NCBI RefSeq assembly: GCF_003319185.1
Contig: NZ_QOHJ01000001.1
Location: 372,001 to 436,000 of the forward strand
Origin: Blastococcus sp. TF02A-30
GTDB taxonomy: Bacteria > Actinomycetota > Actinomycetes > Mycobacteriales > Geodermatophilaceae
DNA length: 64,000 bases
Reading direction: 5' to 3'
Part shown: positions 28,850 to 54,161 of the stretch, one piece after another
Numbering within the stretch: the stretch's first letter is position 1
Layout: the number at the start of each line of letters is the position of its first letter
Notes under the pieces: model-generated
Told to the model about the DNA's origin: nothing
Databases searched by the model: none
The model's input: only the letters and a program-made list of their open reading frames with translations
Made by a program: the position numbers and the translations under genes

Positions 28850-28966
28850 TCAGCGCGGGAGCAGCGCCTCGACGGCGGTGCGCACCTCGGGGGCGTCGGG
28901 CTGGGTCGTCGGCCGGAAGCGGGCCGCCACCTCACCGTCGGTGCTGATCAGGAACTTCTCGAAGTT
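28850..28966 (-). pseudogene. Orphan native 3' end of the glutathione peroxidase gene
   Basis: From 28966 down to the TGA at 28850-28852 the minus strand reads 38 residues beginning NFEKFLISTDGEVAARF and ending AVEALLPR. This is the C-terminal end of a glutathione peroxidase and is closely similar to the last 41 residues of the intact gene at 31201-31704 (NFEKFL...ARFRP..QPDAPEVR.A.EALL). It has host-like GC (about 80 % in the 60 bases from 28861). Upstream of NFEKF the homology stops abruptly: Trp is replaced and unrelated low-GC DNA begins. It is therefore the original gpx end, cut off by the insertion. Confidence 0.9.
28950..28966. repeat. Left direct repeat (att-like) of the gpx insert
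   Basis: AGGAACTTCTCGAAGTT, identical to 31310-31326. It encodes NFEKF plus part of Leu of gpx on the minus strand and contains a dyad, AACTTC-tc-GAAGTT, as often seen in recombinase crossover sites. Here it joins the orphan native gpx end to foreign DNA. Confidence 0.8.
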
Positions 28967-29279
28967 TCGAGGATCACGTCTCCCGTCTGCCGAGGCGCCC
29001 CTTCGGACAGACCGGGCATGGCGTGGGTGAGTAAAGACTCGGCGACGTTGACTTCGGTGACTCAGCGGAGACGGCCGGCGCCCCAGTGCTCGGCCGCCAA
29101 CTCTTCGCCCCTAAACGGCCCACACAGGGACGCTCAGCCGGTGCTTCGTTCGGATGGCCGCACAGTTGCGAGAGCGTCTTGCCCGGTTCAGCCGTCCAGT
29201 CGACACTCGGGCGCACGCGGACAAGGAGCTTAGAAGCAACGCGCCGGAGCGCCCGCCTGGTACGCGACGTTGGTGCCGA
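28967..29279. other. Non-coding left part of the insert
   Basis: This 313-base stretch between the left repeat and the stop of the ATPase gene is intermediate in GC and holds only short frames without sensible composition. I see no recognisable gene, tRNA, terminator or riboswitch. It could contain recombination sites or a small RNA, but nothing in the sequence shows this. Confidence 0.5.
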
Positions 29280-31055
29280 TCAGTCTGCGACAAGCGTGGC
29301 CAGGAGATGAAGGACGGACTGAGGCGTGTAATCCGGGACGTCACCCATGGCTCGCCTCACAAGCTCACGCTTGAGGTTGCTCTGGTACCTCCTGAGAGAA
29401 GGAAATTCGTCGACGACTCGATTCTCCAGGTCATGGCCCCGCTCCTCCAGGATGACCTGCGACACGTCGACGTGAAACCCTCCTCGGTAAGCGCAAGAGA
29501 CGGTAGGGCCAGGCAATTGCAAGCGCTGGCTTATAGCGTCTGCCAAGGGCTGAGCGTGCTTCGGCCCAAGCTCGAAGTGGCGCACTTGTGGCGGGAGCCC
29601 GAGGTCCGCGGCTGACACCATCTGTTCGCGCAGGAGGAAAGTCCCAAGCAGCAGAGGGTCGAACACGAGATTCTCAATCGAGTGACGGTCGTCGATGAAG
29701 TGGACGTGAGGTGGCGCCGCGCTGCGGTTATCTCGATCCACGACTCCGAAGACTGTACTTGCACCTGTGCCACGCAGGTCCGTAACCAGCCGATTAACGG
29801 CGTCGCACCCACCGCCCACATCTCGCCTGCCGGCGGCGATGAACTCCAGAGACTTCTCGGGCGACAGGTCGTTCTTGTGTATGGAGAAAATCTCCTGGAA
29901 GACCGCTTGGTCATATTCGCTCTCAACGAAGACCTGTCGCCTATTCTCCATTCGCACGCTTAGTGATGAAATTCCTACAGTCAAAGCGCTGACCGCTTCG
30001 TCTGACGATGCGGCTCTGAGCCTGCTCCCGTAGCGACTCATGATGTGAACGGCACCCTCGGGCGCTAGGGCTACCGTAGTCGGCGAATGGGTGCTGAGGA
30101 TGACGTGAACGCCGTACTGCCTCACGAAGACGTCTTCGATCACCTGTATGAGGCTCTGCACCATCGACGGATGAAGGCTCGCGTCAGCTTCGTCCAGCAG
30201 GAGAAGGCGCGGCAACTCGATCGCCTCACTCATCCGCGTACCGGAGAATAAGCTGATCGCAATCGCCAAGATTGTTCGCTCACCTGAGGACAGCTCGGCG
30301 GGCCTCACGGCGACGCCCTCGGGGCCTATGAGCGCGGCCTCGTAATTCGCGGTGTCACTCCCCTCCGGCGGTGGCACGAACCTGTAGTTCAGGCCCAGCA
30401 GCGTCAAGACGTCGTCGAGGACCGACCACGGCGGAGCTCCGAACCGTGACTCGAACTCCTCATCCGAAAGCGCCGTCCCCCGACCCTTTGTATGAAGAAC
30501 ATATTGGGCGACATCGTTGAGATGCCGCCGGTGTGCATAGGAAAGGAATACCTCACTAATCGAGGTCGTGAAGGGATCTTTGATGCCAGATACCATCGGG
30601 CCGAAGTTCTTGAAGTCGTCAAGACTGAACTCGTCCAGCTGCTTACCGGCCTGTTGCTCCATACGAATGAGCGCTGCGCGAGTCAGTAGACGACTGCTAT
30701 CAAGATTTGAATAAAGCCATGACAGGAACTGATCGCGCGACGGGAAATTCGCTTTGTTGGACAGCCAAGACTGCACCGTGTTGTAAAGCTGCGCCCAAGG
30801 TTCGAGGAACTGGGCGACACTTGTGGGTGCATCCGCGTTGGCGATCAACTCGCCGAGACGGAAAAGACGAACCTGCACTCCAGTCTGGAGGTGCCCGTAC
30901 TCGTCGAAAATAACTGCGTTGTCGTTCAGTGCTTCAAGCAAGTTTGACTTGCCGGACCCATTCGCGCCCGTGAGGACCGTGAGCAAGGGCAAAGTCACGC
31001 CGTCGACTGATCCTGGCTGAAGTGACCGAAAGGGCCTGTTTGTACGAAGCGGCAC
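29280..31055 (-). CDS. AAA ATPase fused to a TOPRIM/DUF4435-like domain (candidate defence protein)
   Basis: The 591-residue protein starts with an AAA15/AAA21-type ABC-like ATPase: Walker A GANGSGKSN at residues 30-38, a long insert, signature LSSGERTILAIA at about 260, Walker B RLLLLDEADASLHPSM near 290 and the switch His in VILSTHSPT. The last 200 residues fit a TOPRIM/DUF4435 domain: VESEYD at about 385, VFGVVDRDN at about 440, then DDRHSIENLVFDP. OLD-family nucleases and the AriA/AriB proteins of PARIS phage defence combine these two modules; here they are in one chain. GTG 31055 has TAGCGT six bases upstream and no Shine-Dalgarno sequence, so it is probably leaderless. GC is far below that of its neighbours. 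Confidence 0.85.
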   Translation of the reverse strand: MPLRTNRPFRSLQPGSVDGVTLPLLTVLTGANGSGKSNLLEALNDNAVIFDEYGHLQTGVQVRLFRLGELIANADAPTSVAQFLEPWAQLYNTVQSWLSNKANFPSRDQFLSWLYSNLDSSRLLTRAALIRMEQQAGKQLDEFSLDDFKNFGPMVSGIKDPFTTSISEVFLSYAHRRHLNDVAQYVLHTKGRGTALSDEEFESRFGAPPWSVLDDVLTLLGLNYRFVPPPEGSDTANYEAALIGPEGVAVRPAELSSGERTILAIAISLFSGTRMSEAIELPRLLLLDEADASLHPSMVQSLIQVIEDVFVRQYGVHVILSTHSPTTVALAPEGAVHIMSRYGSRLRAASSDEAVSALTVGISSLSVRMENRRQVFVESEYDQAVFQEIFSIHKNDLSPEKSLEFIAAGRRDVGGGCDAVNRLVTDLRGTGASTVFGVVDRDNRSAAPPHVHFIDDRHSIENLVFDPLLLGTFLLREQMVSAADLGLPPQVRHFELGPKHAQPLADAISQRLQLPGPTVSCAYRGGFHVDVSQVILEERGHDLENRVVDEFPSLRRYQSNLKRELVRRAMGDVPDYTPQSVLHLLATLVAD

Positions 31056-31061
31056 GTGTCA

Positions 31062-31067
31062 ACGCTA
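31062..31067 (-). promoter_or_regulatory. Likely -10 box of the ATPase-TOPRIM gene
   Basis: On the minus strand TAGCGT ends six bases before GTG 31055, the TANNNT-N6-start spacing seen at other leaderless genes in this window. No good -35 box is visible. If correct, the insert carries its own promoter. Confidence 0.45.
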
Positions 31068-31200
31068 GCCGTTGCCGACGGCCGGTGTCGGCCCGTGCAA
31101 GCATGTCGAGCAGGCTAGGCCCGAGAATCTACTCAAGCCGCCATCTCTGCCGGTGTCCCTGAAGCCGCCCTCAGGGCGAAGGCTGCCGGGCGGCGCGGTT

Positions 31201-31704
31201 CTAGCGACCTTCGGCCAGTAGGAGGGCCTCGATCGCTACGCGAACTTCGGGAGCGTCGGGCTGGACCTGAGGCCGGAACCGGGCAACTACCTCAAGACGT
31301 GATGAGCAGAGGAACTTCTCGAAGTTCCACTGGACTTCGCCCGCCGCGCCGCTGCTGTCGGCCGCCTGGGTGAGCTGCTGGAACAGCGGGTGCGCGCCGG
31401 GTCCGTTGACCTCCAGCTTCTCGGTCATCGGGAAGGTGACGCCGTAGGTGGCCGAGCAGAACGCGGCGATCTCCTCCGCCGTCCCGGGCTCCTGGCCGGC
31501 GAACTGGTTGCACGGGACGCCGACGACGGTGAACCCGCGGCCGGCGAACTCCTCGTGCAGCTGCTCGAGCTGCCGGTACTGCGGGGTCAGCCCGCACCTG
31601 CTCGCCACGTTGACCACCAGGGCCGGCCCCCCGCCGGCGAGCTGCCGGAGGGTCGCCGGTTCGCCGGCGAGCGTGCTCAGGGGCAGGTCCAGCAGGTCGC
31701 TCAC
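31201..31704 (-). CDS. Glutathione peroxidase family protein with insert-supplied 3' end
   Basis: The 167-residue thiol peroxidase has the active-site segment NVASRCGLTPQY (peroxidatic C37), the Gln segment VPCNQFAGQEPG and the Trp in WNFEKF. Most bacterial members reduce peroxides with thioredoxin. Residues 1-126 are host-like; from NFEKF (127) onward the 41 codons come from the insert, with lower GC (67 % against 80 % in the displaced native end) and five changes or more in the tail, including an added Cys after KFL. The frame is intact, so the enzyme is probably still made. ATG 31704. Confidence 0.92.
   Translation of the reverse strand: MSDLLDLPLSTLAGEPATLRQLAGGGPALVVNVASRCGLTPQYRQLEQLHEEFAGRGFTVVGVPCNQFAGQEPGTAEEIAAFCSATYGVTFPMTEKLEVNGPGAHPLFQQLTQAADSSGAAGEVQWNFEKFLCSSRLEVVARFRPQVQPDAPEVRVAIEALLLAEGR
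31310..31326. repeat. Right direct repeat (att-like) of the gpx insert
   Basis: The second copy of AGGAACTTCTCGAAGTT, where native gpx 5' sequence meets the insert-borne 3' end. Here the dyad extends to GGAACTTC-tc-GAAGTTCC (31311-31328). Confidence 0.8.
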
Positions 31705-40724: not shown

Positions 40725-40741
40725 GGCGGCTCCTCCGCAGG

Positions 40742-41128
40742 TCAGGACGGCGGGCCGTGGTGCACCGCCTCGACGTTGTTGCCGTCGGGATCCCGGAAGA
40801 AGACCCCGTAGTAGCCCGGGTGGTACTCGGGCCAGATCCGCGGCTCGTGCAGGATCTCCGTGCCCGTCGCCCGGGCGGCGGCGAACACCTCGTCGACAGC
40901 CTCGCGCGAGGGCGCCGCCAGCGCCAGGTGGACCGGCCGGTGCCCGGTGTCCTCCATCGGGCTGACCCACAGCTGCGGCTGGCCGTCGGGGCCGCACAGG
41001 CCGATCACCGGCCCGCCGGGGGTGTCGATGCGCATGGCCTCGCGCACGCCGCACGCGGCGAAGACCTGCAGGTAGAAGGTGGCCGCCGCCGCGCTGTCGG
41101 CGACCTGGAGCCCCAGGTGGTCGATCAT
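40742..41128 (-). CDS. VOC (glyoxalase/dioxygenase superfamily) protein
   Basis: The 128-residue protein has the two beta-alpha-beta-beta-beta halves of the vicinal oxygen chelate fold: MIDHLGLQVADSAAAATFYLQVF at the start and VFFRDPDGNNVEAVHH at the end. His5, a central His (HRPVHLALAA) and the late Glu form the usual metal-site pattern. The substrate is unknown; many such single-domain members act in thiol or antibiotic detoxification. ATG 41128 starts at the family position. Confidence 0.85.
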   Translation of the reverse strand: MIDHLGLQVADSAAAATFYLQVFAACGVREAMRIDTPGGPVIGLCGPDGQPQLWVSPMEDTGHRPVHLALAAPSREAVDEVFAAARATGTEILHEPRIWPEYHPGYYGVFFRDPDGNNVEAVHHGPPS

Positions 41129-54056: not shown

Positions 54057-54075
54057 GGCCCCACCCTCCCAAGCA

Positions 54076-54161
54076 GCTTTCGGTACCGAAAGCCGAGCGG
54101 AGGGCGGCAGCTTTCGGTACCGAAAGCCGAGCGGAGGCCGGCGGCTTCCGGTACCGAAAGC
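54076..54161. repeat. Array of three GGTACC-centred palindromes with 34-base period
   Basis: GCTTTCGGTACCGAAAGC occurs at 54076-54093 and 54110-54127, and GCTTCCGGTACCGAAAGC at 54144-54161: exactly 34 bases from start to start each time. The 16-base spacers are near-identical (CGAGCGGAGGGCGGCA and CGAGCGGAGGCCGGCG), so the 34-base unit was duplicated. The array lies in the divergent region between the alcohol dehydrogenase and HelR-like genes, where it could serve as phased operators or as a REP-like repeat. Confidence 0.85.

Follow-up and report, generated by a model that had tools for sequence, protein, structure and literature searches.

The glutathione peroxidase (GPx) gene of Blastococcus sp. 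TF02A-30 raises the question of how a gene can be split by foreign-looking DNA, have its native 3′ end displaced, and remain whole. In the 64,000-nucleotide stretch analysed here (the window), gpx runs on the minus strand from 31704 to 31201 (Pfam GSHPx, 3.9e-34), and its final 41 codons derive from a low-GC insert of 2,360 bp that lies inside the gene between two 17-bp repeats. The features of the locus, with their basis in brackets, are as follows.

28850..28966, minus strand: displaced native gpx 3′ end, 38 codons plus stop, detached from any front (flank join; alignment with empty sites)
28950..28966, no strand: left 17-bp repeat, attL-like (repeat search)
28967..29279, no strand: left part of the insert, no recognised gene (four small ORFs without Pfam match; Rfam none)
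29280..31055, minus strand: sole large cargo gene, 591-aa AAA_21/AAA_15 ATPase with TOPRIM-like C-terminal motifs (Pfam, PADLOC, conserved motifs)
31056..31200, no strand: right part of the insert, from the cargo gene to the gpx stop (two overlapping small ORFs without Pfam match; Rfam none)
31201..31326, minus strand: replacement gpx 3′ end within the insert, 41 codons plus stop, LCSSR...LLLAEGR (ORF; flank join; near-equal tail in P0002)
31310..31326, no strand: right 17-bp repeat, attR-like, AGGAACTTCTCGAAGTT, encoding NFEKF(L) (repeat search)
31327..31704, minus strand: host-derived gpx front, 126 codons, through Trp of WNFEKF (ORF 31704-31201; GSHPx 3.9e-34; GC3 0.98)

The first codon of the displaced host end (NFEKFLISTDGEVAARFRPTTQPDAPEVRTAVEALLPR and stop, 28966-28850) is that for Asn in WNFEKF, and this end lies 2,360 bp away from the one supplied by the insert (NFEKFLCSSRLEVVARFRPQVQPDAPEVRVAIEALLLAEGR and stop, 31326-31201). 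Joining the flanks in silico gives a single uninterrupted GPx frame with the C-terminus ...WNFEKFLISTDGEVAARFRPTTQPDAPEVRTAVEALLPR, and in this join the target sequence proves to be duplicated, with nothing lost. The two ends are homologous to each other and agree at 68% of nucleotides over 38 codons, 15 of which are identical, 12 synonymous and 11 different, and the cut falls between Trp and Asn of WNFEKF, which we take to be catalytic residues of GPx. GC content is 0.604 in the insert, 0.735 in the gpx front and 0.776 in the displaced end without the repeat, and GC3 separates the replacement end (0.68) and the cargo gene (0.69) from the displaced end (0.97) and the front (0.98). Judged by composition, replacement tail and cargo are foreign. 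Thus the earlier note, which described a 2.36-kb low-GC segment between identical 17-bp repeats splitting gpx, is confirmed as to repeats, spacing and GC; its native 38-codon 3′ end of host-like GC, kept at 28850-28966, is borne out by GC3 and the intact flank join, its diverged 41-codon end keeping gpx whole by the intact ORF and the 68% agreement, and its single large gene with no integrase inside by the ORF list and Pfam. Two homologous ends might also be left by an ordinary gpx paralogue, or by an ancient tandem duplication whose copies came to be separated by an unrelated gene, but the end alone is doubled and not the front, the replacement tail is foreign in GC3, and the empty sites described below have one end; we regard this origin as very improbable.

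The repeat AGGAACTTCTCGAAGTT occurs at 28950-28966 and 31310-31326, with a spacing of 2,360 bp, and no further copy at up to 2 mismatches was found in the whole genome (4.13 Mb, 38 contigs). Because repeated 17-mers are common in the window (47 distinct ones, many as overlapping runs), and because AGGAACTTCTCGAAGTT encodes an invariant GPx motif, the repeat and its length count for little by themselves; what speaks for insertion in the DNA is the doubling of the gene end, together with base composition and the empty sites. The six small ORFs outside the cargo gene or at its edge have no Pfam match above cut-off, and the parts of the insert beside that gene (28967-29279 and 31056-31200) have no Rfam match at E<=1. 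Elsewhere in the window, positions 54073-54160 carry tandem near-identical palindromic units of the CTTTCGGTACCGAAAG type, with a spacing of 34 bp from first to second and a slightly different third, which look like an operator array. ARAGORN calls an unusually long tRNA-Asn (gtt) of 100 nt at 40740-40839, possibly an intron-containing gene or a false call.

Empty sites were sought among 29 gpx loci of relatives taken with 1.5-kb flanks, one of them the locus of genome G004 (Blastococcus). A fecCD gene lies in the flank beyond gpx in 19 of the 29, and the distance from the gpx stop to fecCD is 78 bp in G010 (same genus) and 74 bp in G099 (same family), as compared with 79 bp from the displaced end to fecCD in the window. 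In alignment, the DNA of both genomes matches the displaced end and the sequence beyond it as far as the start of fecCD; 5′ of the Asn codon the two relatives carry on as gpx, whereas the displaced copy in the window does not. The alignments support G010 and G099 as empty sites, and with them insertion with target restoration as the probable history of the window. The native end joined to a native front, which the earlier note had proposed to look for, was thus found in both genomes, and the outcome it named as fatal to insertion, two ends in all relatives and no empty site, did not occur: gpx is present in 23/23 genomes of the genus, with a secure second end in two, the window genome (G000) and G004. 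These two are also the sole genomes with a displaced end in the family sample, in which 86 of 112 have a GPx match. The order sample gave a GPx match in 305/397 genomes and more than one match in 32, 31 of which were re-examined together with G004 (absent from that sample), leaving out G056, which has a second GPx gene in the family sample; no secure displaced end besides those of G000 and G004 was found among the 31 and G004, nor a further one in the phylum sample (GPx match in 88/396 genomes). Weak or short second matches, among them those in G005, G036, G182 (103-aa frame), G246, G263 and G277 and, in the phylum sample, G864, were judged by score and frame length.

In G004 the same stretch of gpx is interrupted by a second insert, which brings an end of its own for the gene, has pushed the host end aside and carries a different small cargo. 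Its gpx, ending ...QVQPDAPEVRSAIEALLRAEGR, lies on contig C264, which terminates in an IS256-like transposase (Pfam Transposase_mut), and the displaced end lies on a separate contig, C15, whose start is, by eye, the apparent remainder of the same element; the 8 bases GGGCAGTG are found on both outer sides of the two halves. Excluding the IS, the insert is smaller than 1 kb and holds a ribbon-helix-helix ORF (NikA-like, 31.1 bits against a cut-off of 27) and a short ORF of no assigned identity; no recombinase besides the IS transposase was found in the assembled insert. The IS256-like transposase itself seems, by eye, to be interrupted (L055 1-1160 and L056 1-300), with contig ends TTATCTTGAGC and GCTCAAGATAA that suggest a second IS nested at the contig break. 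A guess that the G004 cargo is a toxin-antitoxin pair was dropped, having found no support on checking. The junctions of the two inserts do not coincide: the window repeat covers nucleotides 1-17 of the motif and that of G004 begins at nucleotide 17, about 16 nt away, with a shared stretch of about 37 nt that is read as split in two by the IS. Thus, of the other inserts with different cargo between the same repeats that the earlier note envisaged, the different cargo is there in G004 and the sameness of the repeat is not. Either two enzymes acted at adjacent sites, or homologous exchange made or shifted the G004 junction. The case for G004 rests on its own displaced end and not on kinship of its tail with that of the window, and we read it as one insert across two separately assembled contigs; mobility, for both inserts, is read from sequence alone. 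On this reading gpx appears to have been targeted more than once, which is new here.

A search with the tail region placed two proteins on short metagenome contigs, P0002 on one of 1,843 bp and P0003 on one of 1,175 bp, beside the window's protein. P0002 agrees with the window at 97/131 positions of the front (0.74) and 34/36 of the end (0.94; Fisher test p = 0.0062, as against 0.66 for P0003 and 1 for P0004), and with its nearest front, P0300, at 115/125 of the front (0.92) and 22/33 of the end (0.67). For a control, pairwise comparisons were made among 197 ordinary GPx proteins that the same searches had returned: in 38 of the 4,721 pairs whose fronts differ as much as those of P0002 and the window, the ends are as alike, and 1 of the 87 pairs with fronts as similar as those of P0002 and P0300 has an end as low. 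The same control, each protein being set against a near front, gave 11/426 for P0003, 11/323 for P0004 and 154/4,240 for the window. The P0003 end shares LCSSR with the window tail and reaches 0.82 against it, a value reached by 752/6,535 ordinary pairs, and the G004 end reaches 0.76, as do 2,160/6,535. By these comparisons P0002 is well supported as one extra host of a near-window tail on a clearly different front, and P0003 is suggestive as a carrier. A count in which four tails were mutual best matches was discarded, since it favours long tails; when the count is confined to the first 18 residues, ordinary tails reach 15 against 16. The codon pattern of FEKFLCSSR had one match in genome_contigs, in Lederbergia, taken as chance from the pattern alone, and neither it nor the AEGR-end pattern had any match in viral_contigs. 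The GPx C-termini of 17 viral-contig loci were translated and a displaced end was recognised in none; one viral match, L107, is not a GPx. The edge of viral contig L092 falls inside a GPx C-terminus (1-156), which may be either a displaced gpx end bordering a provirus or the mere result of a contig cut. Among phage records there were 11 matches, all below 60% identity, and among plasmid records 41, with identity of at most 61.5% among the 20 matches listed.

A homologous recombination event of the Campbell type, in which a circular or transformed molecule bearing part of gpx crosses over once with the chromosome, would need no site-specific enzyme, and it would suit the different points at which the two inserts join within one conserved region, tails of G004 and the window that are no closer than ordinary pairs, and the G004 shared stretch of about 37 nt in two pieces around the IS. 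About 37 nt of shared sequence may suffice for RecA. Against it, the window shares just 17 bp between ends that agree at 68% overall, the displaced end begins exactly at the motif, so that a donor truncated there would be needed, and the near-window tail on another front in P0002 suggests a specialised donor. We consider a crossover of this kind improbable.

The 591-aa cargo protein matches AAA_21 (2.6e-18, 67.6 bits against a cut-off of 27) and AAA_15 (43.9 against 32.1) in Pfam, and its best PADLOC match is ATPase-Toprim_I-B (6.7e-24), followed by mad3, AriA (6.8e-20) and AriAB (1.4e-16). Across 11 aligned proteins the stretches NGxGKS, LLLLDEAD, FVESEYD and VDRD are conserved, of which the first two are the Walker A and B motifs of the ATPase and the last two read as TOPRIM-like motifs. 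All 47 PDB matches are to ATPase parts only, the best being the retron Ec83 ATPase; the FVESEYD and VDRD stretches and the PADLOC ATPase-Toprim alignment, which spans residues 247-467, fit a putative C-terminal TOPRIM domain. The cargo is probably a single-gene phage-defence protein, a candidate of the OLD/PARIS-like kind. As in OLD-family, PARIS and retron ATPase-TOPRIM proteins, a single chain combines an AAA_21-type ATPase with TOPRIM-like motifs after it; unlike in those systems, the gene stands alone, no partner accompanying it in the insert, and its TOPRIM assignment comes from motifs and the PADLOC alignment only. Single-gene ATPase-TOPRIM proteins with an anti-phage effect are described in the cases of ybjD (PMC13261556) and IbfA (PMC12111858). 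The cargo family is rare: at E<=1e-60, with 3 candidates scored per listed genome, it is found in 1/394 class genomes, the window's own, and among 97 relatives the only other full-length homologue, 42% identical, is in G035 (L014 1486-3300), where it forms by itself a low-GC islet with regulator-like genes to either side, away from gpx and with no convincing flanking repeat. Of 8,000 candidates scored in the protein database, 308 are cargo relatives; annotated phages gave none, plasmids gave 17 records with partial matches, and viral contigs (IMG/VR) gave 26 loci with distant homologues of 25-35% identity, several of them within 2-5 kb of an end of contigs of about 38-45 kb. In L110, L112, L118 and L120, contigs of that size, homologues of 27-31% start within about 2-3.5 kb of a contig end. 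Prophage defence cargo often sits near element ends.

No mobility gene was recognised in the insert from ORFs or Pfam; the nearest Phage_integrase match on the window's contig lies about 63 kb away, and the 10 Phage_integrase matches and 1 Recombinase match genome-wide all lie outside it. An integrase linked to the 17-bp core, which the earlier note hoped to find, did not emerge, the core having just two copies at 0-2 mismatches; one recombinase locus (L010) and the first 60 bases of L003 were inspected, and L010 told nothing about gpx. We rejected the idea that the near-palindrome AACTTC-GA-GAAGTT points to a serine integrase, since it follows from the NFEKF codons and is broken in G004. We think it probable that the insert is an integrase-less, att-flanked, CIME-like mini-island, integrated by a recombinase that acted in trans or has since been lost. 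Its forerunner would be a DNA circle that had the beginning of a foreign gpx 3′ end (NFEKFL...) as its attachment site; a single recombination of this circle with the same motif in host gpx would yield, in order, the host front with the foreign tail, the cargo and the displaced host tail. The enzyme would be a site-specific recombinase, most likely of the tyrosine type, supplied in trans or lost later as in CIMEs, and the carried tail would spare GPx because the cut lies between Trp and Asn of the active-site motif. This reading builds on the structure of the locus, the empty sites, the foreign tail and cargo, the second gpx insert and the P0002 tail. Counting against it, no recombinase was recognised in either insert, the two junctions are adjacent and not identical, the tail in G004 resembles that of the window no more than ordinary pairs resemble each other, P0003 is suggestive only, and no further secure displaced ends were found in the order and phylum samples.

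In a variant of this history, gpx once held a larger island or prophage with an integrase gene, and decay by internal deletion left of it the two ends and the defence gene, now immobile. CIMEs are described as arising so (PMC5704250), the distant homologues in 26 IMG/VR loci, several near contig ends, point the same way, and nothing is recognisable in the stretches flanking the cargo gene; but a larger gpx-sited island with integrase was found neither in the family, order and phylum samples nor among the 17 GPx C-terminus matches in viral contigs, and two separate inserts (2.36 kb and, without IS, <1 kb in G004) must both have reached the same form. Decay is a real contender that we lean against, and it partly overlaps the mini-island, for which enzyme loss is allowed too. 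A further extension, which we hold to be doubtful and put forward tentatively, is a lineage of minimal gpx "tail-swap" cassettes without a recombinase gene, in each of which a GPx tail would be the half-site for attachment and the cargo would be small, either defence-like or regulatory; a phage or conjugative element unrelated to them would supply the recombinase. The cut being in the Trp-Asn active-site motif, GPx would be disabled if the cassette were lost imprecisely, and this would stabilise the cassette. The control makes such a lineage less likely, since in it the ends of G004 and P0003 are no closer to the window's than many ordinary pairs are.

Glutathione peroxidase is indicated as an integration target, and its tail suggested to travel as a mobile module. 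The locus offers a simple test case for the spread of defence-like genes by very small recombinase-less islands, and the LCSSR...AEGR tail a marker for finding the helper element. Beyond what the earlier note contained, the analysis adds the empty sites, the second gpx insert and the window's tail on another front. No report of gpx as an integration target of such islands was found in the literature searched, which misses most subscription papers.

Among known elements, a CIME is described as having lost its integration and transfer genes and kept attL and attR (PMC5704250). As far as that description goes, the insert resembles it in having att-like repeats in the 3′ part of the target gene, a restored gene end and no genes for integration or transfer, its one large ORF encoding an ATPase; the 17-bp repeats in the two gpx copies and the empty sites fit putative att sites. 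It differs from a CIME in its very small size, in its target, gpx, and in that no helper ICE/IME was found, nor any parent or tandem partner at gpx in the family, order and phylum samples or in viral contigs. A site-specific recombinase of its own, the trait of genomic islands and IMEs, is missing from the insert. Islands that restore their target are usually much larger and bring their own integrase. In the tDNA islands of Islander, SGI1 at the trmE 3′ end and GI21 in yicC, the target is described as regenerated and the displaced host fragment as kept (PMC4383910, PMC12884075, PMC8409611, PMC8978831). In these respects, so far as described there, the insert is like them; unlike them, it has no integrase and swaps about a quarter of a protein.
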